Positions 2,395 to 38,786 of a DNA stretch of 64,000 bases are shown one piece after another. The translations under genes and the position numbers were made by a program. The notes below the pieces were generated by a model that made no database searches, had not been told where the DNA came from, and saw only the letters and a list, made by a program, of their open reading frames with translations. The stretch lies in the NCBI RefSeq assembly GCF_900101985.1, contig NZ_FNAR01000002.1, positions 62,001 through 126,000 of the forward strand, read 5' to 3'. The stretch is from Bhargavaea beijingensis. Its GTDB lineage: Bacteria; Bacillota; Bacilli; Bacillales_A; Planococcaceae. The first letter of the stretch is position 1. Every line of letters begins with the position of its first letter.

Positions 2395-2396
2395 GT

Positions 2397-3380: not shown

Positions 3381-3418
3381 AAGAGCAATTCCTAGTAATA
3401 TGATTACGATAGAATGTT

Positions 3419-8445: not shown

Positions 8446-8470
8446 TGAGTGGAAGCTGACATAAAAAATT

Positions 8471-8582
8471 GAAAACGGTCAGGACTCTGGTCGCTTACCG
8501 CGGGCCGGCGCCGAGCTCCACAGATGTGGGTGTCTCGACAGCCCGGTTTTTCCCGCAGGTTCTCCCGGCGTCCTGACCGTTT
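8471..8582 (+). other. Long-range hairpin upstream of the aldehyde dehydrogenase
   Basis: A perfect 13-bp outer stem pairs AAACGGTCAGGAC (8470-8482 region) with GTCCTGACCGTTT (about 8570-8582). It encloses about 86 bases with further potential stems (CCACA-GA-TGTGG; GGGTGTC-TC-GACAGCCC; GCGGG with CCCGC). There is no T-run after it, so it is not a standard terminator. It could be a leader RNA for the next gene, an RNA processing site, or a small mobile palindromic element. Confidence 0.5.
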
Positions 8583-8644
8583 GCTATATGGGAGTAAGAA
8601 CTCCATTGCAATGGATGAAAAGTAAAAGAAAGGGGACGAATGAG

Positions 8645-10215: not shown

Positions 10216-12777
10216 CTAGATTTTATCAAGAATTGCAGAATAACTTTGAACTTTATTTTCAAAAGCATTTTCCCCTCCTTCTAAATGGACTAATATTAAT
10301 TTCATAACAGATTTATCACTCAAATAACCTTTTTTTCTAATTAATCCGTTTAGACCATTTGACTCTAAGACAATTACTTGCTCTGAATCAGCATTGGTTA
10401 CAATAGAAGAGTTGTGCGTCACTATAATGACTTGCCGATAATTTTTAATATTACGTAAACTCGCAACGAGATTATTATAAATATATTGATTGTCTAAGTT
10501 ATCTTCAGGTTGATCAATAATAAACGGTGTATTGTCTCCGCAATATTTACCATATTCAATGATTAGTGTCAATATTGCAACTACTTGTTGACCCAGCGAT
10601 AGGTGCTCAATATTATTAAAGTGAATAGGTAAGTTTTCAATTGAAGCTTTAGAGTTCACATTAAATTGGAGGGTATAATTATCCATTGATTCAACATATG
10701 TTGCAATACTTCTAATAATATTGTGTTTATACATACGAAGTATTTTTAATATCTCACTATAAAGGTCTTTTTCAGAAATACTATTGATATTTTGATATCC
10801 TGATCCGATACTCTTTATTGTTAACTCGTTGGATGTAAACTTTTTTATAGGCTCTATAGAGTTTAAATCATTGAATTTTCGGTTGAACAGTAAGCTTAAA
10901 AGAGTGAGGAAATCTATATGGTAGAGCACCCTATGTGTGTAATCAATGAAGTCACCAATTGTGAACATCGTATTTAATATTGGAGTGCTAGTATTAATAC
11001 CCTTAAATAAATCGTCTAAATAACGATAGTAGTTATCTGCTCTCGCTTCATATTTAATAGAAATGAGTTTGTTATGCATATTATTGAACGAGTCAATTTT
11101 GTCATTCGCATTTATTTTAAACCTTTCGAGTTCCTCACGTATGGCTACTAATGATGATTTTAGTGTTTTATTAAAGTCTCTGTTGGATGTGTTATAGAGA
11201 TTATTTATCTTTTCATCGAAAAAGCCCTTAGTTTCTCCTGCTTGGACTACTGACTTAATAAAATCACCAGTTTTACGGTTTTGAATCATATTCACTATGT
11301 TGTTTATTGAGTAATGCTTTTTATAGACACGGTGAAGAATATTTTCAGTTTCGTATTCTGATCCTAGCAACGTTATATTTTTGTTTTTGTCTACCTTAAA
11401 AAGATCGTACCAATTTTTGTTCAGTTTGATATTGTTCCCCTTAGGGGGTTGCCCCTTCTTGTCAAATGCAGCTTCAAGAAAAAAATCAGGATGGGATGTC
11501 GGTAATGCTTGATTTGCTTGTGGGATAAAACGAATAATAAATTCTTCATTGTTATAAGAAAAAAGAATAAAAATACTTGAGTAAAGAGAAATGAATTTCA
11601 AGGTATCTAAATCTTTTGCTTCATTAGTAAATACGGTATCCAAAATATTGAGAATAGTACTTTTTCCTGTTCCGCGGCCACCTATGATACAGTTTAAGTC
11701 CTTTGAAAAATCTACTATGAAGGATTCTTTACCGGTACCTTTTAAGAAACCTGTAGAACCAGGATTAAGTATAATTCCTTTTATATATGTATCAGTAGTC
11801 GTTGGTTTTACAGTGTAAACGCAAAACAAATGATTATTTATTGATTTTATAAGAGAATTAAAACTTATCTCGTTCATTTTTATCCAAGTATTTTGGATTC
11901 CTAATTTATTTATTGAATGAGCATCACTTTCAAAAAGATAGCAAACTTTATCATCTTTAAAATCTGGATGCGTTTTATTCTTCCAAGATTTTGAGGATAA
12001 ATTTGTGAGGCCTAATATTTTTAAATTTGTAGAAAAAAGATTTTTCTTGTATAAACCCGATCCTATTCCTTCGTATGTATTAACATGAGCAATATAACTT
12101 ATTCCGTTAAGAAGATTAATTTGGTTTATTATAGAAAAACTAGTCTCTATAGTTCCGGTCTCTTCAGTATATATATTGTCTTCGAGGAATTTTTCTACGT
12201 TCTCGTAATTTTCTTCATTAAAAATACCCACTACGTGAGTTTGATCAGAGCATGAAATCTCAACACCCAAAAAAAGATAGACAGGGATTTTCCCTTCTTT
12301 TTTTCCTTTTACATTTTTCGAGAAATAGTCTTCAAGGGCATATTTTAATTTATAATACCCTTTGATAGTATTGTGATCAGTGATAATAGCTATATTTATA
12401 TCCTCTTTGTAAAGTTTAAAAGCAATCATGCTGTAGGCCAAAAATTCTTTGAAGCTATCATATGGGGCACTTCTATCTTTTAAAATATCTTTATAAGATT
12501 CACCTGAAAACTCTCCGTTTTTAAACTTGTTTTGAATAATATTTTTTTCGTCATTATTAAACATAGAAATCTCTACGCAATAATCCAACATTTCGTACTC
12601 TGTCAACTGCTGATAACGCTTTCCTTCTATTAAATTATAATCATAAGACGCTGGGGTATGAAAATGTATTTCGGCTTTCTTTAGTTTACCGTATTTGCTT
12701 CTAGTACTCTCAATTTCTAGATAAGCGCTTAAGACGTCGCTTGTTGATGTTTTTAATTTTCTCAAAAAATAACCCAA
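10216..12777 (-). CDS. PHP-domain plus SMC-like ATPase (TrlF-like)
   Basis: This 853-residue fusion has an N-terminal PHP phosphoesterase domain: HFH at 38-40, TDHN at 133-136, GVEIS, AHVN and ESDAHS near 283-288. An ABC/SMC-type ATPase follows: Walker A GGRGTGKST 366-374, signature LSLGQQ 726-731, Walker B FIIDQPED 752-759, and H-loop THNS 787-790. The roughly 350 residues between Walker A and the signature include helical stretches. NCBI names such proteins TrlF family AAA-like ATPases; many are in accessory regions. Starts are TTG at 12777 or, with better AAAGG spacing, TTG at 12765. All catalytic motifs appear intact. It is strongly AT-rich. An antiphage role is inference. Confidence 0.85.
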   Translation of the reverse strand: MGYFLRKLKTSTSDVLSAYLEIESTRSKYGKLKKAEIHFHTPASYDYNLIEGKRYQQLTEYEMLDYCVEISMFNNDEKNIIQNKFKNGEFSGESYKDILKDRSAPYDSFKEFLAYSMIAFKLYKEDINIAIITDHNTIKGYYKLKYALEDYFSKNVKGKKEGKIPVYLFLGVEISCSDQTHVVGIFNEENYENVEKFLEDNIYTEETGTIETSFSIINQINLLNGISYIAHVNTYEGIGSGLYKKNLFSTNLKILGLTNLSSKSWKNKTHPDFKDDKVCYLFESDAHSINKLGIQNTWIKMNEISFNSLIKSINNHLFCVYTVKPTTTDTYIKGIILNPGSTGFLKGTGKESFIVDFSKDLNCIIGGRGTGKSTILNILDTVFTNEAKDLDTLKFISLYSSIFILFSYNNEEFIIRFIPQANQALPTSHPDFFLEAAFDKKGQPPKGNNIKLNKNWYDLFKVDKNKNITLLGSEYETENILHRVYKKHYSINNIVNMIQNRKTGDFIKSVVQAGETKGFFDEKINNLYNTSNRDFNKTLKSSLVAIREELERFKINANDKIDSFNNMHNKLISIKYEARADNYYRYLDDLFKGINTSTPILNTMFTIGDFIDYTHRVLYHIDFLTLLSLLFNRKFNDLNSIEPIKKFTSNELTIKSIGSGYQNINSISEKDLYSEILKILRMYKHNIIRSIATYVESMDNYTLQFNVNSKASIENLPIHFNNIEHLSLGQQVVAILTLIIEYGKYCGDNTPFIIDQPEDNLDNQYIYNNLVASLRNIKNYRQVIIVTHNSSIVTNADSEQVIVLESNGLNGLIRKKGYLSDKSVMKLILVHLEGGENAFENKVQSYSAILDKI

Positions 12778-13060: not shown

Positions 13061-14083
13061 TTGATAGTTGTGAAAGAAATGAAATACGAGAATATGCTAA
13101 AAATGACTAACCATTTACGCTTGAAAGGATATTATTTAAATGATGATGAAGATTTAAAAATTACATTTGAACACTTAGAATTTATCGAACCGGCAGGCGC
13201 AATTGTGTTCTTAAATGCAATGGATAAAATAAAAGAATCTAAAACTCAGTATGAGATTGAACCTATTAATCATTTAAGGCAATCGCGTTCCGCAATTTCA
13301 TATGGTGAAACTATGGGGATTTTTCAGCTAATAGGTATTTCGGATGCTACCTCGCATACATCGGGTTCAACATATTTAGCGCCAACAAAAGTTGGAATAA
13401 GAGAAGTATATAGAGAATTAGATGAAAATGGGATTCCATTAGGGCTATACTTTGAACAAATTTCAGGGCGAATAGTTAATAAGGCTTTAGGACTCGTAGA
13501 ATATAATATAGAAGAAAAAATTAATGATTTATTTATTTTTGTTGTTAGGGAGATGGTAAGAAACATTTTTGATCATGCCCAAACACCTCACTATTACTAT
13601 GCATTACAAGCATATAAAACAACAAACTATGTAGAAGTAGTCATTGCAGATGTGGGTGTAGGATTACGAGCAACAGTACCATTTAGTGAGGAGGAGATAT
13701 GGCATGAGCAGAATACTGACGAAGAGGCAATAAAAAAGGCATTAATCCCTGGGTTATCCGCTTTTTCAAACCATTCCTACGCACCAGAAGAATATAAAAA
13801 CTCTGGTTTTGGACTAGCTTTAGTAAAAAGTATAATCCAGCGTACAGGAGGAATTTTTAGCATTGCATCTGGCACAAAGTCTATAACCTATGGCTCAGCC
13901 GAAAAAGTTGTTCAAGATTGCGATGTTAAAGGAACAATTGTTAGGATGAAAATAGGATTAGATAAACTCGGTAATGTTAACTTTGATGAAGTGCTGAAAG
14001 AGGCAGAAATTGAAGCTATAGGAGAAGGTTTCAAACAAGCACCATCAAATGCCTCAAAAACAGTTAAAAGTAAATACATATAA
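13061..14083 (+). CDS. STAS-like plus GHKL ATPase protein
   Basis: This 340-residue protein has an N-terminal part (about 1-75) resembling a STAS-like fold (LEFIEPAGAIVFLNA). A GHKL ATP-binding domain follows: N box EMVRNIFDHA (Glu164, Asn168), G1 box ADVGVGL (Asp197-Gly201), and G2 box SGFGLAL (248-254). There is no phospho-acceptor histidine domain, so it is not a typical sensor kinase. It starts at TTG 13061 after AAAGGGGGGAG. It is AT-rich like the divergent PHP-ATPase, and the two probably arrived together. Function is unknown; a sensor or effector partner in defence is one guess. Confidence 0.75.
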   Translation: MIVVKEMKYENMLKMTNHLRLKGYYLNDDEDLKITFEHLEFIEPAGAIVFLNAMDKIKESKTQYEIEPINHLRQSRSAISYGETMGIFQLIGISDATSHTSGSTYLAPTKVGIREVYRELDENGIPLGLYFEQISGRIVNKALGLVEYNIEEKINDLFIFVVREMVRNIFDHAQTPHYYYALQAYKTTNYVEVVIADVGVGLRATVPFSEEEIWHEQNTDEEAIKKALIPGLSAFSNHSYAPEEYKNSGFGLALVKSIIQRTGGIFSIASGTKSITYGSAEKVVQDCDVKGTIVRMKIGLDKLGNVNFDEVLKEAEIEAIGEGFKQAPSNASKTVKSKYI

Positions 14084-16108: not shown

Positions 16109-17536
16109 TCACTTCGCAGATTGCTGCACACCCACCGGATTCTGGCCGTAATTGACAGCTTCTTTCTTCCGGTAGAACACGAAGTAGATGCCGACGACAC
16201 CCGCCGTGACGATGCTGGTCAGGATGACCTGGATCCGGGTCGAAGGGATGAAGAACATCGCCAGGTAGATGCCTGCAACAACGATGATCGTTGCGTAGGT
16301 CAAGTATGGGAACAGCCACATCTTGACCGGCAGGTGGCCGCGCTCCTTCTCGAGCCGCTTCCGCATGCGCAACTGAGAGAAACAGATGATCAGGTAGACG
16401 AGAAGGGCGACCGCGCCTGACGAGTTGATGAGGAACAGGAACACTTTGTCCGGCGAGATGAAATTCAGGACCACTGCTACATACGAGAACACGGTACTGA
16501 ACAGGATGGCGCGTACCGGGACGCCTCTTTTGCTGAGTTTCAGGAATGCCTTAGGTGCATCACCCTTTTGGGCCATCCCGAACAGCATCCGGGAGTTGGC
16601 ATAGAGCGCCGAGTTCAGGCAGCTGAGGACAGCGGTCAGGACGACGAAGTTCATGATCTGTGCGGCCGCAGGGATGCCGATATGGTCGAGTACGGCGACA
16701 AACGGGCTGACCAGGATGTTCGCCGAGTTCCAGGGAAGGAGCGTCACGACGACGGCAATCGAACCGATGTAGAAGATGAGGATCCGCCAGACCACGCTGT
16801 TGGTGGCGACACGGACGGAACGGACGGGGTCCTTTGACTCACCGGCCGCGATGGCAACGATTTCGGTGCCCATGAATGAGAAAATGACGACCGTAATGCC
16901 GAGCATGATCGCCCCGAAGCCGGACGGCATGAATCCGCCTTCGCCGAGGAGGTTAGCCGTGCCGGGCGCCTCAATGCCCGGGTACCAGCCGAACAGTACG
17001 GAAACGCCGAGGACGAGGAAGAGTGTGATGCTGACCACTTTGATCAGGGAAAACCAGTATTCAAACTCACCGAACGCCTTGACGGAGAACAGGTTGGTCG
17101 CTGTCAGTGCCACGGTCAGGATCAGGCTCATCAGCCAGATCGGGAAATCCGGAATCCAATACTGGATGATGGCCGCTCCGGCAAGCGCCTCGATGGCGAT
17201 GACGACGACCCAGAAAAACCAGTACAGCCATCCGATCGTGAATCCGGCCCACGGTCCGATCGCCTCATTTGCATAAGTCGAGAACGAGCCGCTTGTCGGG
17301 TACGCGGCAGACATCTCGCCGAGCATCCGCATGACCAGAACGACGATGAGCCCGGCAAATGCATAGGAAAGAATGGCGCCCGGACCGACCGAGTTGATGA
17401 CCGCACCGCTTCCGATAAAGAGGCCCGCACCGATCACTCCCGCAATCGAGATCATCGTGATGTGGCGAGTCTTCAAGTCCGACTTCATGCCTGGCTGCCC
17501 GGAAGTGGCAGGGTCCGTCTGATTCTCTAAGGTCAT
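16109..17536 (-). CDS. APC-family amino acid permease (GabP-like)
   Basis: This 475-residue permease has about 12 membrane helices and the family hallmark SIAGVIGAGLFIGSG near the N-terminus. It also carries GEMSAAYPTSGSFSTYA and GTEIVAIAAGESKDP. The overall pattern resembles GABA/amino acid permeases such as GabP and AnsP. The ATG at 17536 is accepted as the start. A near-match cre lies just upstream, suggesting carbon catabolite control. Transport of GABA or beta-alanine would suit the aminotransferase module at 25-30 kb, but the substrate is not determinable here. Confidence 0.8.
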   Translation of the reverse strand: MTLENQTDPATSGQPGMKSDLKTRHITMISIAGVIGAGLFIGSGAVINSVGPGAILSYAFAGLIVVLVMRMLGEMSAAYPTSGSFSTYANEAIGPWAGFTIGWLYWFFWVVVIAIEALAGAAIIQYWIPDFPIWLMSLILTVALTATNLFSVKAFGEFEYWFSLIKVVSITLFLVLGVSVLFGWYPGIEAPGTANLLGEGGFMPSGFGAIMLGITVVIFSFMGTEIVAIAAGESKDPVRSVRVATNSVVWRILIFYIGSIAVVVTLLPWNSANILVSPFVAVLDHIGIPAAAQIMNFVVLTAVLSCLNSALYANSRMLFGMAQKGDAPKAFLKLSKRGVPVRAILFSTVFSYVAVVLNFISPDKVFLFLINSSGAVALLVYLIICFSQLRMRKRLEKERGHLPVKMWLFPYLTYATIIVVAGIYLAMFFIPSTRIQVILTSIVTAGVVGIYFVFYRKKEAVNYGQNPVGVQQSAK

Positions 17537-17581: not shown

Positions 17582-17810
17582 CCAATTGGTAGAAGATACT
17601 GACTTCTTTCATCATAGTGAATCGAATCGGCCGAAGGAATAGACAGGACGTTAAATGCTCTTGCTGAATGCGGGACGTAATGTAAAAATCACCCGGTAAA
17701 GCTTGGTTAACGCCTGATTGCTCTTAAAATGCGGCTATTAGATTTTGAATAGGATCCCGTACGTTTGTTGATAAATTTTCCTGTATTAGTAAAGGTGTTC
17801 ACAACTATTA

Positions 17811-17865
17811 GACAAACTGTCCAGTAGATTGTAACGTTCATTATACATCTAAATAGAAGAATCAG
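17811..17865 (+). promoter_or_regulatory. Bipartite operator-like motif, copy 3
   Basis: GACAAACTGTCC (17811-17822) is followed by GAATCAG (17859-17865), as at 426 and 3327. It lies in the 448-bp gap between divergent genes at 17536 and 17985, which otherwise holds only the cre/promoter elements listed separately. ATTAGACAA precedes it, as in copy 2 (ATTAGACAAT). Confidence 0.6.
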
Positions 17866-17911
17866 AATTTTCTATACCGTAAGATGTTTAGTGAAAGATA
17901 TTGCAGTCTGA

Positions 17912-17943
17912 TTGACTCTGTTTTGAAAGCGTTATCATTACCG
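17912..17943 (+). promoter_or_regulatory. cre site within a promoter-like block, second occurrence
   Basis: Positions 17922-17939 match the full cre consensus without mismatch (core TGAAAGCGTTATCA). TTGACT (17912-17917) and TATCAT (17933-17938) flank it, 15 bp apart. The block starting GACTC is nearly identical to the one at 3421, although the operons encode different proteins. Confidence 0.8.
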
Positions 17944-17984: not shown

Positions 17985-18203
17985 ATGAAAGCAACATTTA
18001 GAACGCCTAAGACTTACAAGGGGTGGATCGGTTTGTTCGCTATTTTGACGGTTGTATTGCTTGGGAGTTGGCCGGTCATACCACTGCTTAATCATGAAGC
18101 CATCTTGTTCGGAATGCCGATTCTCATGTTTTGGTCGGTTGTCCTGATCTTCCTGACAACAGGCGTCCTGATGGCACTTAATAAGATGGGGGTGAATGGC
18201 TGA
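17985..18203 (+). CDS. DUF3311 (YhjC-like) small membrane protein
   Basis: This 72-residue protein has two predicted helices (about 11-28 and 39-62) and a GMPILMFWS turn typical of DUF3311 proteins. These are encoded directly before SSS-family symporters such as Bacillus subtilis YhjB. The ATG at 17985 follows CGGGGGGAA. The stop overlaps the next start by one base (TGATG). By analogy with YhdT-PanF it is probably a small subunit of the symporter. It is the first gene of a catabolic operon. Confidence 0.8.
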   Translation: MKATFRTPKTYKGWIGLFAILTVVLLGSWPVIPLLNHEAILFGMPILMFWSVVLIFLTTGVLMALNKMGVNG

Positions 18204-19708
18204 TGGCACAGTGGATTCCTTTTTTGATTACGGTATCTTACATGGTAATTGCAGTCTGGCTCGGCTTCGGGGCAGGCAAAGGGCGCGATATGAACAAAGT
18301 GGAAGAATGGGGAGTTGCCGGCCGAAGTCTGGGACCCATTGTCATGTACCTCCTGGTTGGTGCGGGGGGCATCAGCGCATATACGTTCATGGGAGCACCG
18401 GGATGGGCGTATTCGAAAGGGGTACCGGTGCTGTATGTGGTTATATATCTGACATTTATGGGCATTACCGCGTGGTATCTTGGGCCAAAAGTGTGGGATC
18501 TGGGAGCGAAGTATAATCACGTGACGCAGGGAGCAGCCATCACACACCGTTATGAAAGCCCGGCACTAGGAGCACTCTCTTCTTTCGTCACCTCGATAGG
18601 TGTCCTGGCTTACGCCGTTCTCCAAACGACAGGTTCAGCTTATATTCTGAATGTCATGAGTCATGGCAAGATCCCGGTTTGGCTTGGTGTCATCTTATCT
18701 CTGGCCGTTATTTCAATCTATCTTTTCCGTAGCGGGTTGCGGGCGATAGGGATTACGAATGCGTTTCAGGGTGCTCTAATGTTCGTTGTTTCGTGGGCAT
18801 TCGGACTTTGGGTAGTCAAGCAGTTCACGGGAGGATACTCGTTCGGACCGGTATTTGAACGGGTTCGCGAGGAGGCACCGCAATTCCTGACACTGCCGGG
18901 CAACCTTGGGGACATGGGCTTTGCATTCTGGACGACATCCATCCTGATATCCATGGTATCAGTCTGGCAAACTCACTGGATTCAATGGATGGGCGCTAAT
19001 ACACGCAAATCAATCCGTACCGCAGCCACGATGCTTCCGACATACTACATCGTGTGCATCCCGATGCTGGTGGTAGGATTCATCGGCATCTTCGTATATC
19101 CCTCACTCGCCAAGGCTGACACTGTTGCCATCCAAATGGCTATGGATAATATGCCTGTGCTTCTCGCAGGCCTGTTGGGTGCGGGCACTTTGGCTGCTGC
19201 AATGTCCTCTAGTGAACCGTGCATTCATTCGACGGCTCTCAGTTACAGCAAGGATATCCTTCAGCCAATTTTCAAGCTCACTGATGATAAAGCAGGCAAA
19301 ATGACACGTTGGCTGATCTTCCCGATTATGGGCCTGATTGTGGCGCCAATCTCAATCATGCAACCTGCAAGCCTTGTCTATATTCTACTGATTGGTTACG
19401 GCTTCATTGGCCAGGCGTTCCCGGCATTGGTCGGTATGTTCTTCTGGCCGCGTGCGACAAAGCAGGGTGCATTCTGGGGCCTGGCCGCAGGCTTTGTCGT
19501 GACATTGATCTTCTCGGTCTGGTTCCCGCACCCGTTAGGCATTCACGCCGGTATATGGGGACTATTCGTCAACCTGCCGATCTTCTTTATTGTCTCTCTC
19601 ATGACGGAGCCGGTTTCCAAAAAGACGGTTGAAGACTTCTTCCCGGATATGGTGGATGAGCTTTATGAAGAAGCACCAGAAACGACAACCAAGCCTGTAT
19701 CAATCTGA
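18203..19708 (+). CDS. SSS-family sodium:solute symporter (YhjB-like)
   Basis: This 501-residue polytopic symporter has the conserved early segment EEWGVAGRSLGP and GAGGISAYTFMGAPGWAYSKG, and about 13 hydrophobic stretches. It is clearly different from the PanF paralogues at 859 and 3902 though in the same superfamily. It is translationally coupled to the DUF3311 gene and followed by three hydrolase genes, so its substrate is probably an amide, carbamoyl or N-acyl compound. That substrate class is inferred from neighbours. Confidence 0.85.
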   Translation: MAQWIPFLITVSYMVIAVWLGFGAGKGRDMNKVEEWGVAGRSLGPIVMYLLVGAGGISAYTFMGAPGWAYSKGVPVLYVVIYLTFMGITAWYLGPKVWDLGAKYNHVTQGAAITHRYESPALGALSSFVTSIGVLAYAVLQTTGSAYILNVMSHGKIPVWLGVILSLAVISIYLFRSGLRAIGITNAFQGALMFVVSWAFGLWVVKQFTGGYSFGPVFERVREEAPQFLTLPGNLGDMGFAFWTTSILISMVSVWQTHWIQWMGANTRKSIRTAATMLPTYYIVCIPMLVVGFIGIFVYPSLAKADTVAIQMAMDNMPVLLAGLLGAGTLAAAMSSSEPCIHSTALSYSKDILQPIFKLTDDKAGKMTRWLIFPIMGLIVAPISIMQPASLVYILLIGYGFIGQAFPALVGMFFWPRATKQGAFWGLAAGFVVTLIFSVWFPHPLGIHAGIWGLFVNLPIFFIVSLMTEPVSKKTVEDFFPDMVDELYEEAPETTTKPVSI

Positions 19709-19740
19709 TCTATTTTCGTTTATGAAAGGGGAATGCGATT

Positions 19741-21360
19741 ATGGCAAAGGAACTGTTCATCAACGGTGAAGTTATTACCGTCAACAGCCAAAACGAAATC
19801 ATGGAAGCTGTCGCCATAGAAGACGGAAAAATTCTTGCTGTCGGTACCACGGAAGATATTCTGAAACTGAATGACGAGGAGGGGACGGTCACTGACCTGG
19901 AAGGGCGCACGCTCATGCCCGGACTCATTGAATCGCATATTCATACGACGATGTATGGGGCAAACGTCCTTGCCATCTCCTGCAAGGACCCTGGTATCCG
20001 GACCATCCCTGACTTACTGGAAAAGTTGAAGGAGCAGGCGGCTTCAGTATCCGATGGACAATGGGTCCGTGCTTGGGGCTTTAATGAGAACGCCATCGAA
20101 GAAGGCCGGTTCCCGACTCGGGAAGAGTTGGATGGTGTCACAAATCGGCACCCGGTGATGGTGGTCCGTGCTTGCGGACATATTTCCGCGGTCAACAGCA
20201 GGGGACTGGCGATTGGGGAGATTACCCGTGATACGCCGGATCCTGAAGGCGGGACAATCGGCCGGGGGGCTGACGGCGAGCCGGACGGACGCCTCATTGA
20301 AAATGCCCACATGAACCTGTATCAGCGTGCCGCACATACCCGTGATGAAATCCGTGAAGCCCACAGGGTCGCTTCCCGGCATTTTGCGGAAAAAGGGATT
20401 ACGGCTGTCCATGATGCGACCGGTTATGGTGTCGATAATATTGAAGCGTTACGAGAGGATGCCGAGGAGGGGGTCATCGCACAGCGTGTGTATGCGATGG
20501 TCGGGGCATTGAACAATCCGGATCAGGTCGTCAGGCATTATCTCAAGAAAGACGTCCGCACCGGAGACGGAAACGACCGTTTCAGATACGGCCCGGTCAA
20601 GGTATTTCTGGATGGCTCCAGCAGCGGTCCGACCGTCTGGACCACGGAGCCGTATACGAGTGATCCTGAAAACTACGGCATTCACTATATGACACAGGAA
20701 GAGCTCGATGACCTGTTCGTTCCGGCACATGAAAAAGGTTGGCAGATCACCGCCCATGCACAGGGCGACGCGGCCATCGATCAGTTGCTGAATACGATCG
20801 ATAAGGCACACCGGCTCCATCCGCGTGAAGATGCACGCCACCGCATTGAACATGCCGGACTTGCAAGAAAAGACCAGGTGGAGCGTATGAAGGAGCTTGG
20901 CGCTGTCCCGACACCAAACCCGGCTTTCTTCCATGAATACGGGGACGGATATCTGAAGAACTACGGTGAACGCGCACTGAACATGTACCCGCTTGCCAGT
21001 TACCGGGAGGCCGGTGTTCCGGCAACGCTCACAGCGGACTGCCCGGTCACGGATTATAACCCGATGAGAGGCATCCACAGCGCCATGACCAGAAAGGCGC
21101 CGTCCGGACAGGTTGTCGGAGAGGCGGAGCGGATTGGCCTGCTCGATGCTATCCGCTGCTGCACGATCAATGCGGCGTATTCAGGATTCAGCGAGGACAG
21201 CACAGGATCCATTGAACCCGGCAAGCTTGCCGACCTAGCCATCCTGGACCGCTCCATTCTAAATGCTGATACTGACGATATTCCTGGCATCCTGGTCGAC
21301 CGGACGATCATTGGAGGAGAAACGGTCTTTGAACGGAGCGAAGAGGCGGTCCGGTCATGA
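19741..21360 (+). CDS. Amidohydrolase family 3 protein (YtcJ-like)
   Basis: This 539-residue metal-dependent amidohydrolase has an N-terminal beta-sandwich piece, LMPGLIESHIHT (HxH metal site), a central WQITAHAQGDAAID, HRIEHAGLA, and a C-terminal GSIEPGKLADLAILD segment. YtcJ-like enzymes hydrolyse imides, amides and cyclic ureas; most have unknown substrates. It follows the symporter by about 30 bp with AAAGGGG before the ATG and overlaps the next gene (ATGA). It may act first on the imported compound. Confidence 0.82.
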   Translation: MAKELFINGEVITVNSQNEIMEAVAIEDGKILAVGTTEDILKLNDEEGTVTDLEGRTLMPGLIESHIHTTMYGANVLAISCKDPGIRTIPDLLEKLKEQAASVSDGQWVRAWGFNENAIEEGRFPTREELDGVTNRHPVMVVRACGHISAVNSRGLAIGEITRDTPDPEGGTIGRGADGEPDGRLIENAHMNLYQRAAHTRDEIREAHRVASRHFAEKGITAVHDATGYGVDNIEALREDAEEGVIAQRVYAMVGALNNPDQVVRHYLKKDVRTGDGNDRFRYGPVKVFLDGSSSGPTVWTTEPYTSDPENYGIHYMTQEELDDLFVPAHEKGWQITAHAQGDAAIDQLLNTIDKAHRLHPREDARHRIEHAGLARKDQVERMKELGAVPTPNPAFFHEYGDGYLKNYGERALNMYPLASYREAGVPATLTADCPVTDYNPMRGIHSAMTRKAPSGQVVGEAERIGLLDAIRCCTINAAYSGFSEDSTGSIEPGKLADLAILDRSILNADTDDIPGILVDRTIIGGETVFERSEEAVRS

Positions 21361-22409
21361 ACGTTACCCGCGCAGTCCGGAAAATTCATCTGAGTGGTAC
21401 GCCTTATGAGATCGGCCGCGCTCACGGGGAGCAAGGGAAGAGAGAAATCGCAAATAGCCTGTCCACCTATCAGGCACTCTTCCGCGGGTACACGGGGATG
21501 TCCTGGCAAGAGGCCTGCGAGAAGGCGCTTCTGCACCATGACGCGATATCGGCATTCCGCCCCGATTATCTGGAAGAAATGCAAGGCGTCGCGGACGGTG
21601 CCGGTATCCGGTTTGAGGACATTCTCGCATTAAATGCGCGGAGTGAAATAGCGCTAACGGCTACCCCTGACGGATGCACATCATTTGCTCAGCATAAGGG
21701 AGGCAAAACCTGGCTCGGGCAAAATTGGGACTGGAAAAGCAGCCAGATTGATTCCCTCCTGGACATTGAAATCGAGCAGGAAGGGAAACCCTCTGTACGA
21801 ATGATCACGGAAGGCGGCATTATCGGGAAAGTCGGCTGCAACAGCGCCGGCGTGGGTGTGTGTCTGAACGCACTCATGACAAGGACCTGGCAGCCGAAAG
21901 TACCGATACATCTGGGGCTGCGCGCGGTTCTGGACTCCCATACGTTCGGGGAAGCTTCTGAAGCCGTAAGTGATGGGCGGATGGCCTCTCCCGCGCATTT
22001 CCTCATCGCCTCCAAAAGCGGTGAGATGGCGGGGACAGAGGTGTCTCCTGTCCATACCGCAACCATTCCGCCCAAGGACGGAGTGGTTGTCCATACCAAC
22101 CATATATGCGATCCGCAGATGCAAGAGGCCGTATCTGACTTTCCGATTCCGGACTCTGCTCCTCGCCTGGATCGAATCAAAGAGCTGATGAAAGAGTTGG
22201 ATGAAGAAGCAAGTGCTGAGCAGATGTTTGGCGTGCTGTCCGATCATGAGAACTATCCGGACTCCATTTGCAGACACATCAACCCGTCTTTCCCGGAGCA
22301 CACACAGATGGAGACTGTCTTCAGCATTGTCATGAATCTTACCACCGGCTCGTTTGACTATCGCACAGGAAGGGCATGTGAGGCAGGCGCCGGTTCAGGC
22401 AGTTTCTGA
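21357..22409 (+). CDS. C45-family autoproteolytic acyltransferase/hydrolase
   Basis: This 350-residue protein resembles the acyl-CoA:6-aminopenicillanate acyltransferase (C45) Ntn-hydrolase family. DGCTSF places the expected autoprocessing nucleophile at Cys107, followed by GQNWDW, and an upstream GRAHGEQ is typical. The enzymes self-cleave and then hydrolyse or transfer N-acyl groups. It overlaps the amidohydrolase stop (ATGA). Together with the flanking enzymes it suggests stepwise removal of acyl or carbamoyl groups. The exact substrate is unknown. The last codons form part of a terminator hairpin. Confidence 0.82.
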   Translation: MNVTRAVRKIHLSGTPYEIGRAHGEQGKREIANSLSTYQALFRGYTGMSWQEACEKALLHHDAISAFRPDYLEEMQGVADGAGIRFEDILALNARSEIALTATPDGCTSFAQHKGGKTWLGQNWDWKSSQIDSLLDIEIEQEGKPSVRMITEGGIIGKVGCNSAGVGVCLNALMTRTWQPKVPIHLGLRAVLDSHTFGEASEAVSDGRMASPAHFLIASKSGEMAGTEVSPVHTATIPPKDGVVVHTNHICDPQMQEAVSDFPIPDSAPRLDRIKELMKELDEEASAEQMFGVLSDHENYPDSICRHINPSFPEHTQMETVFSIVMNLTTGSFDYRTGRACEAGAGSGSF

Positions 22410-22424
22410 ACCGGTGCTCTTTTA
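22387..22424 (+). terminator. Terminator-like hairpin overlapping the C45 gene end
   Basis: GCGCCGGTTCAG (22387-22398) pairs with CTGAACCGGTGC (from about 22405), followed by TCTTTTAG. The 5' arm lies inside the coding sequence and the stop codon is in the 3' arm. It may lower expression of the next gene. Confidence 0.6.
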
Positions 22425-22455
22425 GTCGGATATACATGTTAAGGGGGAAGGCCAA

Positions 22456-23712
22456 GTGGAAAAGATCAATCGTCAGCGTTTGCAGAGCTTGCTGGAACAG
22501 TTCAGTGCATTTGGGGCCACAGAAGGGAATGGTGTGACCAGACTCTCCTTGTCACAAGAAGATATCAAAGCACGCCAGAAGTTCATCGAAACCAGTGAAG
22601 AAATCGGGTTGTCGGTGAAGGTGGACGATATGGGGAATCTGTATGCAACGCTGCCCGGAAAAGAAGATTTGCCGCCGATTGCGATGGGTTCCCATCTTGA
22701 TTCCGTCGTAAAAGGAGGCCGGTTCGACGGAACACTGGGTGTTGTGGCCGGATTGGAAGTTGTACGGACGATCGTTGAGCGAAACATCAAGACCAATCAC
22801 CCGATCACAGTGATTAACTTTACTAATGAAGAAGGTGCCCGCTTCGATCCGGCGATGATGTCTTCAGGGGTGCTGGCGGGCAAGTTTGCAAAAGAAGTCA
22901 TGCTTCAGTCTTCAGACACGGAAGGCGTGACATTTGGTCAAGCACTTGAGCAAAGCGGGTATGCAGGAGAAGTCGGGAACCGTCTCAAGGAAGCAGCTGC
23001 ATTTGTAGAGCTTCACATTGAACAGGGCCCAGTTCTTGAACATAACGGCGAGGAGATTGGCGTTGTCGAAGGGGTAATGGGAATGGCTTGCTACGATATT
23101 TCACTGAAAGGCGAGTCGAATCATGCCGGTACCACACCGATTCCGATGCGGAGAGATCCAATGTTTGCTTCAGCGCAAATCATTGTGGAACTTCAGCGGG
23201 AGCTCAAGAAGCTGCCGGAGGATCTCGTTTACACAATCGGCAGGATCATTGCCTATCCCAATATTCACACGGTCATTCCGAATGAGGTCACGTTCACTAT
23301 TGAGGCCCGCCACAAGAGCATGGAAGTCATCCGCCAAGTGGAAAGGATCATTGACCGTCTCCCCAAAGTGGTGGAGCGGTGCACACTGACCTCCCGGAAG
23401 TTGTGGGGAAGGGATACGGTCGAATTCAAGGAGGACATTGTTCATGCAGTCTCAGAATCGGCTGAAGAGCTTGGTTTCAAAGGCCGCAATATGTACAGCG
23501 GAGCCGGACACGATGCACAATTTATCGCCAGTTATATTCCGACAGCGATGATTTTTGTTCCCAGCGCAAAAGGCTACAGTCATCGTGAAGATGAATATAC
23601 ATCGTTTGAGGAATGTGCAAACGGTGCTGATGTTCTCTTGAATACGGTGTTAAAGCTGGATCGGAATTTCAGATCGGAAGAGAAGAAGGTGTTAGAAGAA
23701 AATAGAGCTTAA
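22456..23712 (+). CDS. M20 Zn-dependent amidase (allantoate/N-carbamoyl amino acid hydrolase type)
   Basis: This 418-residue member of the AllC/HyuC/beta-ureidopropionase branch of M20 has GSHLDSV (first metal site), GRFDGTLGVVAGLE, TNEEGARF, ELHIEQGPVLE, and a C-terminal SGAGHDAQ and GYSHREDE. These enzymes hydrolyse carbamoyl or ureido groups, releasing CO2 and ammonia. It starts at GTG 22456 after AAGGGGGAAGG. One family activity, N-carbamoyl-beta-alanine hydrolysis, would yield beta-alanine for the 25-30 kb module, but allantoate or other carbamoyl amino acids are equally compatible. Confidence 0.82.
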   Translation: MEKINRQRLQSLLEQFSAFGATEGNGVTRLSLSQEDIKARQKFIETSEEIGLSVKVDDMGNLYATLPGKEDLPPIAMGSHLDSVVKGGRFDGTLGVVAGLEVVRTIVERNIKTNHPITVINFTNEEGARFDPAMMSSGVLAGKFAKEVMLQSSDTEGVTFGQALEQSGYAGEVGNRLKEAAAFVELHIEQGPVLEHNGEEIGVVEGVMGMACYDISLKGESNHAGTTPIPMRRDPMFASAQIIVELQRELKKLPEDLVYTIGRIIAYPNIHTVIPNEVTFTIEARHKSMEVIRQVERIIDRLPKVVERCTLTSRKLWGRDTVEFKEDIVHAVSESAEELGFKGRNMYSGAGHDAQFIASYIPTAMIFVPSAKGYSHREDEYTSFEECANGADVLLNTVLKLDRNFRSEEKKVLEENRA

Positions 23713-23716
23713 CAGA

Positions 23717-23758
23717 AATACCGGGGACGTCCTTTTCAACGGGACATCTCCGGTATTT
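23717..23758 (+). terminator. Hairpin terminator after the M20 amidase operon
   Basis: AAATACCGGGGACGTCC pairs with GGGACATCTCCGGTATTT with small internal mismatches. The T-run is short (TTTGC). It lies between convergent genes and may serve both. Confidence 0.65.
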
Positions 23759-23789: not shown

Positions 23790-25430
23790 TTAATGTACCG
23801 GAAGCCTCTCTCCCGCTTCGGTCTGCTCCAGCATCCGGTACGCCTGCACCGCCACTTCCAGAGCGAGCCTGTTGGCGGGTTCCATGAAGTCTGCGCCAAG
23901 CAGGCCCTCAAGCTTTCCGATCCTGTGGTAGAGCGTCTGCCGGACGATGAACAGGCGATCCGCCGCTTCTTTCTTGGCGCCGCCGCATTCCAGATAGACG
24001 ACGAGCGTCTCGAACAGGCGGCTGTCATGGCGGGCATCATGTTCAATCAGCATTCCGAGATAATCGTCGACGTAGGTCTCCAGTTCGCCGCTCCTCTTCA
24101 AAAGCAGTAACAGGCGGTGGATTCCGAGCTCTTCATAAAACACCGACTCCGTGATGGCTTCCTCCTGGAGCTGGATGACATCCTCGCTTTCGCGGTAGGC
24201 CCGCCGAATGTCGGCAAGGTCCTGGTAGGTTTTGCTGATGCCGAATCGGCTGTTTCCGAACTGCGGCATCGGCATGTTCCGGAATTCCCTGATCAGCGGT
24301 TCGAACCGGGCATTGCAACGGCTTTTTTCTTCTTCCGAGATAAAAAAGGCGAGCACGGTCATCTCATTTTCGCCCGAAGTGATGGCAGGGAAGAACCCGT
24401 GCCGCTGGAACAGGCTCCGGATGAGCAATGCCCGCTGGACAAGTTCTTCTTCCAGCAGGTCCTGTGACGGGAAAGGTGCATTCGTCCCCGGGCGGATGCT
24501 GAACGCCCGGTAATACATATTCCTGCTGCGTGCAGGAAGGACGGAGCGGACCGTTTCCGGATCCACATGGCGATCGGTAATGAGGTTGCGGACGACTTTG
24601 TCCTCAAGGTTCTGCTTGCGCTCCTCGACCGTCCGGTTGCGGAGAATCACCTGGGAAATGGCAAGACTTGCGCGATCCAGGATCAGAAAATAGAAATCCT
24701 CCTGGAGCGGCTCGTCCATGCCGAGAAAGAGCCGTCCCCATACTTGCCCGGGCCCTCGCACCGGAACGCTCGCAAAGCGTCTGTCCGCGATTTCCACATA
24801 ACGTTCAGTGTTCTCCAGCCCGCCTTCAGACCCGATGCGGGAGCGCAGGATGGCTTCGCTTTCTTTGGCCCCAGACGGATAAAAGTAGGGGGCCGGCCGG
24901 TCGGAGATGAAGATGGCCTCCCGCCGGAAATATTCATGGAGCTCCTGGAGGATTTTCAGGATGCCGTTGGACGTGAGGGACAATTCAATGAATCGGCCGG
25001 ACAGTCTGTCCAGCTCGGAGATCATCTTGTGATGGCGGTTGATCAGCGCTGTGTGGAGATCATGTGTGAGATCGACGAACCGGATCACTTCCTCGAATAC
25101 GAGAATCGGGAAGCCGAGGCTGTCCGCGAGCTCCAGCACCTCCGCGGAAATCCGTTTTGACGGGTCCGCCAGTTCGATGCACAACGCGGATGCGCCCAGT
25201 TCATCCAGCTTGCGGATATAGGCAAGCTGCGTCTCCAGGTCGAGCGCCAAGCTGATGCCGGTTGTCAGGATCAGCTCTTCCCCATTGATCAGCGACTCGA
25301 ATTCGAGGACTTCAAGAATGTGCGACCAGCGGATTTTCCGGGAAAGGCCGGATGCGCCCGCTGCCAATTTCGCTTTTTGAAAAGACTCCCGTTCCATTAC
25401 GTCCCGGACAGTCAGCTCGATATTTTTCAT
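23790..25430 (-). CDS. PucR/CdaR family transcriptional regulator
   Basis: This 546-residue regulator has an N-terminal PucR sensor domain (about 5-130; TVRDVMERESF, NGEELILTTGI). A central GGDEF-like CdaR region follows, then a C-terminal PucR-type helix-turn-helix (near 480-535; KEAADRLFIVRQTLYHRIGKLE). It is divergent from the mmsA gene across 148 bp, so it most likely controls that operon, probably as an activator responding to an amino acid. It also borders the operon ending at 23712, making it the nearest candidate for the shared bipartite motif. Confidence 0.85.
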   Translation of the reverse strand: MKNIELTVRDVMERESFQKAKLAAGASGLSRKIRWSHILEVLEFESLINGEELILTTGISLALDLETQLAYIRKLDELGASALCIELADPSKRISAEVLELADSLGFPILVFEEVIRFVDLTHDLHTALINRHHKMISELDRLSGRFIELSLTSNGILKILQELHEYFRREAIFISDRPAPYFYPSGAKESEAILRSRIGSEGGLENTERYVEIADRRFASVPVRGPGQVWGRLFLGMDEPLQEDFYFLILDRASLAISQVILRNRTVEERKQNLEDKVVRNLITDRHVDPETVRSVLPARSRNMYYRAFSIRPGTNAPFPSQDLLEEELVQRALLIRSLFQRHGFFPAITSGENEMTVLAFFISEEEKSRCNARFEPLIREFRNMPMPQFGNSRFGISKTYQDLADIRRAYRESEDVIQLQEEAITESVFYEELGIHRLLLLLKRSGELETYVDDYLGMLIEHDARHDSRLFETLVVYLECGGAKKEAADRLFIVRQTLYHRIGKLEGLLGADFMEPANRLALEVAVQAYRMLEQTEAGERLPVH

Positions 25431-25578
25431 ACTAAGCCCTTCCTTTCGTCCAATCTTCCAGCTCGTCTATTTGACACTCTGTAAAATGACAAAGATTCTG
25501 ATAGTTTGTAAAGTAGAGTATGAAGTGAACAGGGCAACCCGTCAAGATGGCATTTAGACCAATGAGGAGGAGTCAGCA

Positions 25579-27213: not shown

Positions 27214-28572
27214 ATGACCGTCGTAAAAACGGAAGCCCAGTCGCTCGTCGAAAAAGACCGGCAAAACGTCTGGCACCACATTTCTCCATATGTGGAGAAA
27301 AACCCGCCAATGATCTGGGCAAAGGGGGAAGGCGCCTGGGTGACGGACCATGAGGGGAACCGTTACCTGGACGGCATGTCCGGACTGTGGTGTGTCAACG
27401 TCGGCTACGGCCGCGAAGAGCTTGCGAAGGCAGCTTATGACCAGATGAAGGAACTGTGCTACGTGCCGATGACACAAAGCCATGAGCCGGCGATCGAGCT
27501 TGCGGCAAAGCTGAACGAATGGCTGGATGACGACTACATGATCTTCTATTCCAATAGCGGTTCCGACGCGAACGAAGTCGCATTCAAGATCGCCCGCCAG
27601 TACCATCAGCAAAAGGGCGATGCGTCGCGCTACAAGTTCATCAGCCGCTACCGGGCCTACCACGGCAGCTCGATGGGCGCGCTCGCCGCGACCGGACAGT
27701 CGCTCCGCAAGTACAAGTACGAACCGCTCGCGCCGGGGTTTCTTCACGTCGCGCCGCCTGACAACTATCGGCGTCCGGAAGGCATGAGCGTCGAGGAGTA
27801 CAACCTCATGCGGGCGGAAGAACTCGAGCAGAAGATCATCTGGGAGCAGAAAGAGACGGTTGCCGGAGTGATCATGGAGCCGCTCATCACAGGAGGCGGC
27901 ATTCTGATCCCTCACCCGGTTTACCTCCAAAAAGTGGAGGAGATCTGCAAAAAACACGGCGTCCTTCTCATCATTGATGAAGTTATCTGCGGATTCGGCC
28001 GCACGGGCAAGAAGTTCGGCCACCAAAACTTCGGCCTGAAGCCGGACATCGTCACCATGGCCAAAGGCCTCACAAGCGCCTACCTGCCGCTGTCCGTCAC
28101 GGCAGTGCGCAAGGACATCTACGAGACGTTCAAGGACAGCGAGGAAAACAGCCACTTCCGCCATGTGAACACGTTCGGCGGCAACCCGGCGGCATGTGCG
28201 GTGGCTCTGAAGAACCTCGAAATCATCGAGCGGGAGGGCCTCGTCGAACGCGCGGACCGTCATGGCGAGCGTCTCCGCGCGGAACTGGCACATCTTCAGG
28301 AGCATCCGTATGTCGGTGAAGTCCGGGGAATCGGCTTCCTGCTCGGCGTCGAACTGGTGGAAGATAAACAGACCCGCGAACCGGCAAGTGCCGCGCGGAT
28401 TGGCAAAATCATCGCCGACTGCAAGGCGAATGGCCTGATCGTAGGGAAAAACGGGGACACGGTAGCCGGGTATAACAATATTCTGACCCTGTCCCCGCCG
28501 CTCTCCTGCACGGACCAGGATGTCGATTTCATTATTTCCGTGATCAAGAAGGTTTTTGAAGAAAACTGTTGA
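27214..28572 (+). CDS. Class III PLP aminotransferase (beta-alanine/omega-amino acid:pyruvate type)
   Basis: This 452-residue fold-type I aminotransferase has the YRAYHGSS segment, LLIIDEV (Asp255) and PLP lysine Lys284 in [10 protein letters not shown], with a typical WCVNVGYG near residues 59-66. The family includes beta-alanine:pyruvate, taurine:pyruvate and GABA transaminases. With mmsA before and alanine dehydrogenase after, the best reading is beta-alanine plus pyruvate to malonate semialdehyde plus L-alanine, with Ald recycling pyruvate. The ATG follows AAAGGGGA. Confidence 0.85.
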
Positions 28573-28625: not shown

Positions 28626-28639
28626 GGAGGGAAATGGAA

Positions 28640-29773
28640 ATGAGAATCGGAGTACCTAAAGAGATCAAAAACAACGAAAACCGGGTGGCGATGACGCCTG
28701 CAGGTGTGGCGATATTGGCAACCGCCGGCCACAACGTGATCATCGAGAAGGGGGCGGGCCTCGGTTCCGGCTTCACGGATGAGGAATACGCGGCTGAAGG
28801 CGCGGCAATCGTTGAAACGGCTGCAGAAGCGTGGGCGGCCGACATGGTGATGAAGGTCAAGGAGCCGCTTCCGGAAGAGTACGGCTATTTCCGTGAAGAC
28901 CTGATCTTGTTCACATACCTGCACCTTGCTGCGGAGCCTGAGCTTGCGGAAGCGCTTGTTGAGAAGAAAGTGACGGCGATCGCTTATGAAACCGTCCAGT
29001 TGCCGAACCGCTCGCTGCCGCTCCTTTCGCCGATGAGCGAAGTCGCCGGCCGCATGGCGACGCAGATCGGTGCCCAGTTCCTCGAGCGCATCCACGGCGG
29101 CAAGGGCATCCTTTTATCAGGCGTGCCGGGCGTCCAGCGCGGCAAGGTCACCGTCATCGGCGGCGGCATGGCCGGCGCAAACGCCGCGCGTGTCGCGGTC
29201 GGAATGGGCGCGCAGGTGACGGTCATCGACCTGAGCCCGGAACGTCTCCGCCAGCTGGACGACCAGTTCGGAAATGACATCCAGACGCTCATGTCGAACC
29301 CGTTCAACATCGCGGAAGCGGTGAAGGACGCGGACCTGGTTGTCGGTGCTGTTTTAATCCCGGGTGCCAAGGCGCCAAAGCTTGTCACGGAAGAAATGGT
29401 CAAGTCGATGCAGCCGGGCTCGGTTCTCGTTGACATCGCAATCGATCAGGGCGGCATCTTTGAAACATCCGACCGCATTACGACGCATGACGCCCCGATC
29501 TATGAAAAACATGGCGTCGTCCATTATGCTGTAGCCAATATGCCGGGCGCGGTGCCGCGTACATCCACGATGGCGCTCACGAATGTCACGGTGCCATATG
29601 CACTCCAGATTGCGAACAAAGGCTGGAAGCAGGCGGCCCTCGACAACGAGCCGCTCCGCAAAGGCTTCAACACTTACGCGGGCCATGTCACTTACAAGTC
29701 GGTCGCGGAAGACCTCGGATACACTCATGCCGATCTTCTGGACCTGATTGAGCCGGTTGCGCAGCACAACTGA
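28640..29773 (+). CDS. ald: Alanine dehydrogenase
   Basis: This 377-residue protein has the diagnostic N-terminus [38 protein letters not shown], and the NAD-binding [13 protein letters not shown]. It reversibly deaminates L-alanine to pyruvate and ammonia. The ATG at 28640 is nine bases after TTTGGAGGG. The ATG at 28634 is less well spaced, and the upstream ATG at 28556 overlaps the previous gene. It would complete the transamination cycle by regenerating pyruvate. Confidence 0.95.
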
Positions 29774-31497: not shown

Positions 31498-31612
31498 CTC
31501 TTATCAAGAGCGGCGGAGGGAATAGGCCCTGCGAAGCCCGGCAACCGGCAGACGATGTCTGCAAAGGTGCTAAATCCTACAGATCCGGGAGCGGATCTGA
31601 CAGATAAGGGGA
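31498..31612 (+). ncRNA. SAM-I (S-box) riboswitch aptamer
   Basis: The element shows S-box hallmarks: a closing stem CTTATC/GATAAG, the AAGAGCGGCGGAGGGA segment, GCCCTGCGAAGCCCGGCAACC, and AAGGTGCTAAATCC. High SAM is expected to stabilise the aptamer and allow the downstream terminator to form, switching off metY and probably hom. Confidence 0.95.
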
Positions 31613-38775: not shown

Positions 38776-38786
38776 GGTGTTCTCTC

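Follow-up and report, generated by a model that had tools for sequence, protein, structure and literature searches.

A candidate operon for scavenging N-acyl- and N-carbamoyl-beta-alanine-type amides in Bhargavaea beijingensis

Gene content and active sites of the amide operon

The window analysed here is a stretch of 64,000 nt of contig NZ_FNAR01000002.1 from Bhargavaea beijingensis, whose genome (2.99 Mb, 43 contigs) was surveyed as well. At positions 17985–23712 it carries genes for a symporter and three stacked amide-cleaving enzymes, referred to below as the amide operon. The original prediction had proposed this arrangement, and it is confirmed by the open reading frames (ORFs), by family scans and by the conserved catalytic residues. 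The genes, called from ORFs together with profile scans (Pfam and NCBIfam/TIGR models with their cut-offs), and the hairpins beside them are as follows.

17985–18203, plus strand: DUF3311-like small membrane protein, putative symporter partner (19.7 bits, under the Pfam cut-off of 30)
18203–19708, plus strand: SSS-family sodium:solute symporter (SSF PF00474, 96.8 bits)
19741–21360, plus strand: YtcJ-type Amidohydro_3 metallohydrolase (PF07969, 339.8 bits, cut-off 29.7)
21357–22409, plus strand: C45 Ntn-hydrolase, predicted N-acyl omega-amino acid hydrolase (NF040521, 289.5 bits, cut-off 85)
22387–22417, plus strand: terminator-like hairpin at the C45/HyuC junction (-24.9 kcal/mol, z -4.15, T-rich tail)
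22456–23712, plus strand: HyuC-type M20 enzyme, predicted N-carbamoyl-beta-alanine amidohydrolase (TIGR01879, 431 bits, cut-off 204)
23716–23758, plus strand: strong hairpin, probable terminator, between the convergent HyuC and PucR genes (-25.2 kcal/mol, z -4.48)

The YtcJ and C45 ORFs overlap by 4 bp. The original proposal did not mention the DUF3311-like gene, and the hairpin at the C45/HyuC junction sets HyuC partly apart. Because of this hairpin HyuC is possibly only partly co-transcribed and in part a separate unit; a very similar sequence stands at this place in L024, the single relative inspected. Pattern scans of the window found 8 terminator sites against 8.2 in shuffled sequences and 5 sigma-70 promoter sites against 6.4, in neither case an excess, and Rfam at gathering cut-offs gave no riboswitch for the operon, the elements it found being SAM and PreQ1 riboswitches elsewhere in the window. 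The symporter scores 119.6 bits with the panF model TIGR02119, so far under the cut-off of 328.05 that it is not PanF itself. Homologues of solved structure exist for C45, YtcJ and HyuC, and the match of the symporter to structures is weak.

In the YtcJ-type protein (539 aa), His68, Lys287, His339, His371 and Asp433 occur in all 21 rows of the alignment and His66 in 20, with a gap in one; their roles as metal-site ligands are presumed from the alignment to 3icj and from the general features of the family. The C45 enzyme has a Gly106-Cys107 site at the nucleophile and is homologous over nearly its full length to the fungal acyl-CoA:6-aminopenicillanic acid (6-APA) acyltransferase AAT (2x1d, E 3.6e-46). 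Its Cys107, Asp125 and Asn248, kept in 32 of 32 rows, align with AAT Cys103, Asp121 and Asn246, the last two of which we take to be catalytic. In HyuC, residues Glu125, Gln190, Arg285 and His376 align to the ligand residues Glu131, Gln196, Arg291 and His385 of RrCbetaAA, a characterised N-carbamoyl-beta-alanine amidohydrolase, and the metal and ligand residues are present in all 18 rows. These rows include a second clade of M20 enzymes, so the ligand residues alone cannot separate substrates.

Distribution of the gene set and relatives of its hydrolases

A C45 homologue (E 1e-10) was found in 18 of the 261 genomes of the host order and, at a threshold of 1e-40, in 18 of 397 genomes sampled from the order of Oceanobacillus polygoni (G261). 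Gene neighbourhoods were examined at 31 loci, of which 15 from relatives hold an intact C45 of the window clade (L021–L029, L070–L074 and L102). The SSS–YtcJ–C45 set is present in all 15, and YtcJ adjoins C45 in every one. Twelve of them carry an orthologue of the symporter (at least 70% identity); L072–L074 carry another SSS protein (26–29%), which in L072 has MctP as its best NCBIfam match, under the cut-off. Two further loci, L075 and L078, have a broken C45 and no YtcJ. The gene set does not look like a chance assembly, because the order of symporter, YtcJ and C45 is kept in several genera. The four-gene set put forward originally thus holds for these three genes and not for the third hydrolase, which is a window-type HyuC in L021–L024, L071 and L074, the same type on the opposite strand in L027 and L028, a member of the second M20 clade in L029, L072, L073 and L102, an AS amidase in L025 and L026, and absent from L070. 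An extra gene that is absent from the window lies between C45 and HyuC in L021–L024; the one copy scanned, in L021, matches FMN_bind_2 and is presumably PaiB-like, and the copies in L022–L024 are its 77–89% relatives.

The C45 tree (64 rows, with long-branch warnings) places the window C45, whose nearest named relatives are from Bhargavaea, inside a 17-row clade (support 100/99), joined at 97/76 to a sister clade of 13 rows (100/99). Contexts of the sister clade were read on the 20-kb loci L103–L114, which represent 12 of its 13 rows (G299 was left out). Among these 12 loci, a relative of a GNAT/carbon-nitrogen hydrolase fusion, an aldehyde dehydrogenase and a class III aminotransferase each occur in 11, a PuuB-like oxidase in nine, relatives of PotA, B, C and D in eight and a YtcJ relative in five; the 20 kb of L113 contain no polyamine genes. 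The names PuuB and PotA–C were assigned by eye, the best NCBIfam match of the PuuB-like oxidase being L-pipecolate oxidase (216.8 against a cut-off of 600), and AguA scored above its cut-off with AguB and PotD under theirs. In L111 and L112 there are homologues, at 63–69% identity, of the methylmalonate semialdehyde dehydrogenase (MMSDH), aminotransferase and alanine dehydrogenase genes that form the beta-alanine hub of the window (below). From this context we infer that C45 enzymes of the sister clade deacylate an N-acyl omega-amino acid arising in polyamine breakdown, and the window C45 is itself fairly probably an N-acyl omega-amino acid hydrolase.

As an observation in its own right, L103–L112 and L114 look like polyamine-catabolism operons with C45 and sometimes YtcJ, their parts varying by locus, and suggest a route for N-acylated polyamines. 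A more distant YtcJ–C45–SSS set (46%, 37% and 24%) lies in L115, outside the counted clade. Distant C45 relatives (Proteobacterial, Thermaceae and others; 26–37%) showed no YtcJ neighbour at 1e-8, many of their contigs being short, and were not used for function.

In the M20 tree (18 rows, midpoint-rooted, with a long-branch warning) a 100/100 split groups HyuC with enzymes of PreT–PreA–dihydropyrimidinase operons (Oceanobacillus, G200). The enzymes of L119, L121 (7233), L122 and L123 are on the HyuC side, and the second M20 clade is on the other together with a long-branch row, L121 (18144), about 4 kb from PreT. This grouping, and the position of the gene set near PreT–PreA in the Oceanobacillus loci L025 and L026, would suit a remnant pyrimidine or hydantoin pathway in which YtcJ replaces dihydropyrimidinase, HyuC cleaves the carbamoyl compound that results and C45 plays an accessory part. 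We hold such a remnant to be very improbable: four Oceanobacillus genomes carry YtcJ and a true dihydropyrimidinase together, the third hydrolase varies while YtcJ–C45 stays, the promoter motif described below precedes none of eight PreT genes, and the genome of B. beijingensis yielded neither PreA nor dihydropyrimidinase at 1e-40. The single match to the dihydropyrimidinase model there (200.5 bits, cut-off 393) is probably PyrC. A complete pyrimidine pathway was rejected for this genome on the same searches, in which PreT was not included. Since PreA and dihydropyrimidinase are absent, HyuC would act on N-carbamoyl-beta-alanine from elsewhere or on a related substrate, and it is quite probably an N-carbamoyl-beta-alanine amidohydrolase. 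Allantoin use, which the original prediction had named as a characterised pathway that might account for the genes, likewise found no support in this genome: HyuC scores far under the AllC cut-off (TIGR03176, 306.5 bits, cut-off 597.75), and the lone cyclic amidohydrolase match is the weak one from the dihydropyrimidinase model, the allantoinase model not having been run.

Promoter signals, the beta-alanine hub and the PanF operon

The region upstream of the amide operon, its flanking genes and a second operon in the window contain the following features.

3324–3339, plus strand: second exact copy of the operator-like site, before the PanF operon, which also has a cre-like box (3430–3445)
3902–10093, plus strand: operon of PanF, M20 deacylase, TTC-type decarboxylating dehydrogenase, SDR and aldehyde dehydrogenase genes, predicted pantothenate catabolism
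16109–17536, minus strand: GABA-permease-like transporter (GABA, gamma-aminobutyric acid), candidate beta-alanine permease (TIGR01773, 673.8 bits, slightly short of the 678.1 cut-off)
17808–17823, plus strand: operator-like TTAGACAAACTGTCCA with a palindromic GACA-N3-TGTC core (TTAGACA-N3-TGTCCA), the core also found in relatives
17858–17872, plus strand: AGAATCAGAATTTTC, another conserved block of the promoter; the PanF operon likewise has GAATCAGAA upstream, at 3374
17923–17938, plus strand: CcpA catabolite-responsive element (cre)-like box TTGAAAGCGTTATCAT, 0 mismatches
23790–25430, minus strand: PucR-type regulator, candidate regulator of the regulon (PucR N-terminal domain PF07905 108.7 bits, PF13556 (HTH_30) 63.3 bits)
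25470–25485, plus strand: TTTGACACTCTGTAAA, a degenerate operator-like site in the promoter between the divergent PucR and MMSDH genes; palindromic TTTGACACATTGTCAAA in L022–L024
25579–27042, plus strand: CoA-acylating (methyl)malonate semialdehyde dehydrogenase, MMSDH (TIGR01722, 630.5 bits, cut-off 448.5)
27214–28572, plus strand: class III omega-aminotransferase, probable beta-alanine aminotransferase (profile scans)
28637–29773, plus strand: alanine dehydrogenase (TIGR00518, 598.5 bits, cut-off 391.85)

The claim that the amide operon shares its regulation with a pantothenate-type operon is supported by the promoter signals. Three elements stand in identical order before the amide operon (17808, 17858, 17923) and before the PanF operon (3324, 3374, 3430). 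The 2.99-Mb genome has two exact copies of TTAGACANNNTGTCCA, one at each of these operons, against about 0.09 expected at equal base frequencies. At one mismatch three further places match (L145–L147), all inside unrelated ORFs and taken as chance; the reversed control gave 4 matches where the site itself gave 5 with one mismatch or none, these totals having no breakdown by mismatch, so the one-mismatch matches are given no weight. An alignment of seven sequences upstream of the DUF3311-like gene conserves the GACA-N3-TGTC palindrome, the AGAATCAGAAT block and the cre-like box, the last of these with at most one mismatch at a similar place in five of six relatives (not L071). Under the cre consensus that we assumed, the window holds 7 sites (4 places) with at most one mismatch against 1.0 expected, and the only two free of mismatches are those of the two operon promoters. 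The amide operon is probably under carbon catabolite control.

Across 93 loci (1.70 Mb, in which related strains are not independent and some loci come from the same genome), [AG]GACANNNTGTC[CT] occurs 16 times: six times before the DUF3311-like gene (L021–L024, L070, L071), four before the M20 deacylase (L132, L136, L137, L140), four before PanF at 487–579 bp upstream (two in L139, one each in L021 and L022), once inside the SDR gene before the PanF-operon aldehyde dehydrogenase (L132) and once at an unrelated place (L076). The palindromic core is found ahead of both kinds of operon in genera other than Bhargavaea. A relaxed motif, compared with 300 shuffled versions, beat all of them before DUF3311 (7/12), the M20 deacylase (11/24) and PucR (10/19), and its count before MMSDH (6/20) was reached by 1 of the 300. 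Before the class III aminotransferase (2/22) and the aldehyde dehydrogenase (2/25) it was not clearly above the shuffles, 28 and 27 of the 300 reaching these counts, and it was found in none of the 101 regions upstream of isopropylmalate dehydrogenase-type, SSS, YtcJ, C45, HyuC and PreT genes. Counts on one strand over 300 bp upstream were 0/6 for PanF, 2/6 for the GABA permease and 2/4 for the Oceanobacillus AS amidase query. Because the relaxed motif had been widened after the hub promoters were aligned, the hub counts are partly circular and form the weaker part. The PanF-operon promoters of L021, L022, L130 and L131 have weaker variants of the full site and that of L070 has none. The palindrome is present in L139, from a genome (G006) with no C45 at 1e-10, and in L071, from one (G183) with no PanF-operon deacylase; it therefore belongs to both operons separately.

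The PucR-type gene is convergent with HyuC and divergent from the MMSDH gene, which starts the hub. In a catabolic hub of this kind, beta-alanine and pyruvate yield malonate semialdehyde and alanine, the semialdehyde is converted to acetyl-CoA, and alanine is returned to pyruvate. A hub with PucR and aminotransferase genes lies within 10.5 kb in 10 of the 15 loci (L021–L027, L072, L073, L102), a PucR match at 1e-70 is present in 17 of 18 genomes, and such a match occurs elsewhere in four of the five genomes that have no hub nearby, G265 being the exception. With the hub adjoining, beta-alanine is the likely product of the amide operon, and PucR, on our reading, rather probably binds the shared palindrome. 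Inverted-repeat sites are reported for the PucR-type regulators GabR, PutR and AdeR in the available part of PMC7652997. Another regulator beside the operator-bearing operons was sought in the flanks of seven loci and rejected, a TetR-like gene (by eye) occurring upstream of M20 in L136 and L137 only.

The operon could instead act on some other amide, whether peptide-like, derived from GABA or another omega-amino acid, or xenobiotic, its linkage to the hub then reflecting an aminotransferase that takes many omega-amino acids. The class III family is indeed broad in its substrates, and the polyamine-type operons that house most of the sister C45 clade have betaine/aminoaldehyde-type dehydrogenases, which makes GABA amides possible. 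The hub dehydrogenase, however, is of the MMSDH type and not of the succinate semialdehyde type (317.8 bits, cut-off 646), and the hub promoter carries a related palindrome; we consider this alternative improbable.

Two PanF symporter genes, at 859 and 3902, score 696.9 and 694.6 bits with TIGR02119 (cut-off 328). In the PanF operon the deacylase (5377–6615) is of the ArgE/DapE type and the TTC-type dehydrogenase (6608–7693) scores 489.9 bits (cut-off 470.4). Pantothenate catabolism proceeds through pantothenase, pantoate and aldopantoate dehydrogenases and dimethylmalate dehydrogenase, and we infer that the operon matches this route step for step. The region 859–10093 is thus of interest by itself as a candidate for pantothenase and a full pantothenate catabolic route. 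The four-gene core was found in 15 of 16 further loci (all but L140), often with about five more genes following on the same strand, and L021, L022 and L072 have the deacylase without the other three core genes nearby.

The PanF-operon deacylase (1e-120) is encoded by 52 of the order's 261 genomes, among them 12 of the 18 with a C45 match (Fisher 9e-6; the Fisher tests are uncorrected for relatedness of genomes). At a C45 identity of at least 53% it is present in 12 of 13 genomes (1.4e-8), of which three (G073, G131, G222) hold only a broken or partial C45, and outside the genus in 6 of 7 (1.4e-4); the five genomes under 53% (G160, G192, G207, G231, G239) are without it at 1e-120. It lies within 10.5 kb of C45 in 8 of the 15 loci (L021–L024, L070, L072–L074), and the full set of M20, dehydrogenase, SDR and aldehyde dehydrogenase genes is about 10 kb or less away in five (L023, L024, L070, L073, L074). 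Pantothenate is N-pantoyl-beta-alanine and so itself an N-acyl-beta-alanine. This co-occurrence, the promoter signals and the proximity common to the two operons would fit an amide operon devoted to importing and cleaving pantothenate or its derivatives (such as pantetheine, panthenol and pantothenamides), whose C45 would act as a further pantothenase or like a pantetheinase and so feed the PanF pathway. The deacylase of the PanF operon is nevertheless missing from four of the five Oceanobacillus and Bacillus genomes tested and from G183, all of which carry the C45 set, and the symporter of the operon scores far under the PanF cut-off, so we regard this restriction to one family as unlikely.

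Elsewhere in the window, a SMC/AAA-type ATPase gene (10216–12777, minus strand) matches part of the PADLOC anti-phage model Ppl (E 1.3e-39) and, with a gene for a HATPase-domain protein (13061–14083, plus strand), lies in the interval that separates the PanF operon from the GABA-permease-like gene; in L021–L024 the spacing is too short for the two. The SAM riboswitch (31498–31610) is upstream of an apparent Cys/Met-metabolism pyridoxal phosphate enzyme gene (31738, by eye), and the PreQ1 riboswitch is at 38783–38828 on the minus strand.

Proposed route and comparison with known systems

Gene content, conserved active-site residues, conserved linkage and shared promoter signals are observed. 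The original suggestion of an acyl or carbamoyl derivative of beta-alanine as substrate is largely supported and remains a sensible candidate. The grouping of HyuC with pyrimidine-operon enzymes and its conserved ligand residues count in favour of the proposed role. On this sequence evidence we consider it somewhat probable that the genes form an operon for scavenging N-acyl/N-carbamoyl-beta-alanine-type amides within one beta-alanine regulon. The SSS symporter and its DUF3311-like partner would import a small amide acid. YtcJ and C45 would remove the acyl part or parts of N-acyl-beta-alanine-type amides, in sequence or on different acyl groups, and HyuC would take the carbamoyl group off N-carbamoyl-beta-alanine. 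Free beta-alanine could then be transaminated with pyruvate by the aminotransferase, the semialdehyde oxidised to acetyl-CoA by the MMSDH-type enzyme, and pyruvate regenerated by alanine dehydrogenase with release of ammonia. The PucR-type regulator would bind the palindrome common to the amide and PanF operons and its more degenerate form at the hub. N-acetyl-beta-alanine would be an example of a substrate, and is also a plausible intermediate in the polyamine-type operons of the sister C45 clade; a paper on N-acetyl-beta-alanine in mice, in the part available, found no gut-microbial origin for it. More tentatively, the regulon may have two undescribed inputs, symporter–YtcJ–C45 for N-acyl-beta-alanines and PanF–M20–TTC–SDR–aldehyde dehydrogenase supplying the pantothenase and the pantoate-branch genes.

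Several observations weigh against the proposed scavenging role. HyuC lacks a dihydropyrimidinase or PreA partner in its own genome and is set apart by the hairpin. No hub lies within 10.5 kb in five of the 15 loci (L028, L029, L070, L071, L074), and G265 has the set with no PucR match at 1e-70; in its locus L138, MMSDH and aminotransferase genes stand next to a PucR-type gene of 31% identity. The relaxed motif is missing before DUF3311 in 5 of 12 loci (L025, L026, L027, L029, L102), before the M20 deacylase in 13 of 24, before PucR in 9 of 19 and before MMSDH in 14 of 20. In G183 and four Oceanobacillus genomes the C45 set occurs with no PanF-operon deacylase at 1e-60 (G192 and G231 likewise have none at this threshold; G265 has it). 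The PucR site of B. subtilis is non-palindromic according to the part of PMC7652997 at hand.

The reading that we favour is a new branch feeding into beta-alanine catabolism, made up of enzymes from known families. None of the matches listed from open-licence PMC articles describes this gene set in its title or the opening of its abstract. If correct, this reading would assign bacterial C45 and YtcJ-type enzymes, for which few substrates are known, a role in physiology, and would supply a DNA signal for tracing the regulon in other genomes. It would also provide candidate genes for bacterial pantothenate breakdown, whose first enzyme, pantothenase, was stated in 2023 to be unidentified as a protein (PMC10393543, available part).

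Among known systems, reductive pyrimidine catabolism (PreT/PreA, dihydropyrimidinase, beta-ureidopropionase/HyuC) has a HyuC of the same clade and, beside it in Oceanobacillus, a hub of this type (aminotransferase, MMSDH, PucR), whereas B. beijingensis is without PreA and dihydropyrimidinase and its operon has YtcJ and C45 in addition. Pantothenate catabolism, as predicted for the PanF operon, is close by, has the same promoter signals and is expected to yield beta-alanine, but the amide operon has other hydrolases and another symporter and no pantoate-oxidising genes. The gabR–gabTDP system of C. glutamicum, as described in the accessible text of PMC7652997, likewise has a PucR-type regulator, GabR, divergent from an aminotransferase/semialdehyde dehydrogenase set headed by gabT and binding inverted repeats. 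It differs in serving GABA rather than beta-alanine and in that GabR is without the GGDEF-like domain of the window PucR; in the window it is the dehydrogenase gene that is divergent, and amide hydrolases are added. For C45, the fungal acyltransferase (2x1d) is similar in near-full-length homology with aligned nucleophile Cys and Asp/Asn, and the insect C45 enzyme Tan, which degrades N-beta-alanyldopamine (PMC10194958, part seen), is a precedent, in a different protein, for action on a beta-alanine amide. Unlike both, the window C45 stands in a bacterial catabolic context, with a predicted substrate. Taurine is the sulfonate analogue of beta-alanine. In the available part of a preprint (PMC13081902), the metallo-bile-salt hydrolase of Bilophila, also of family PF07969, cleaves the amides of taurine-conjugated bile salts, and so offers a precedent for the chemistry in a different protein, a secreted enzyme of 101 kDa, for the YtcJ-type protein of the window.

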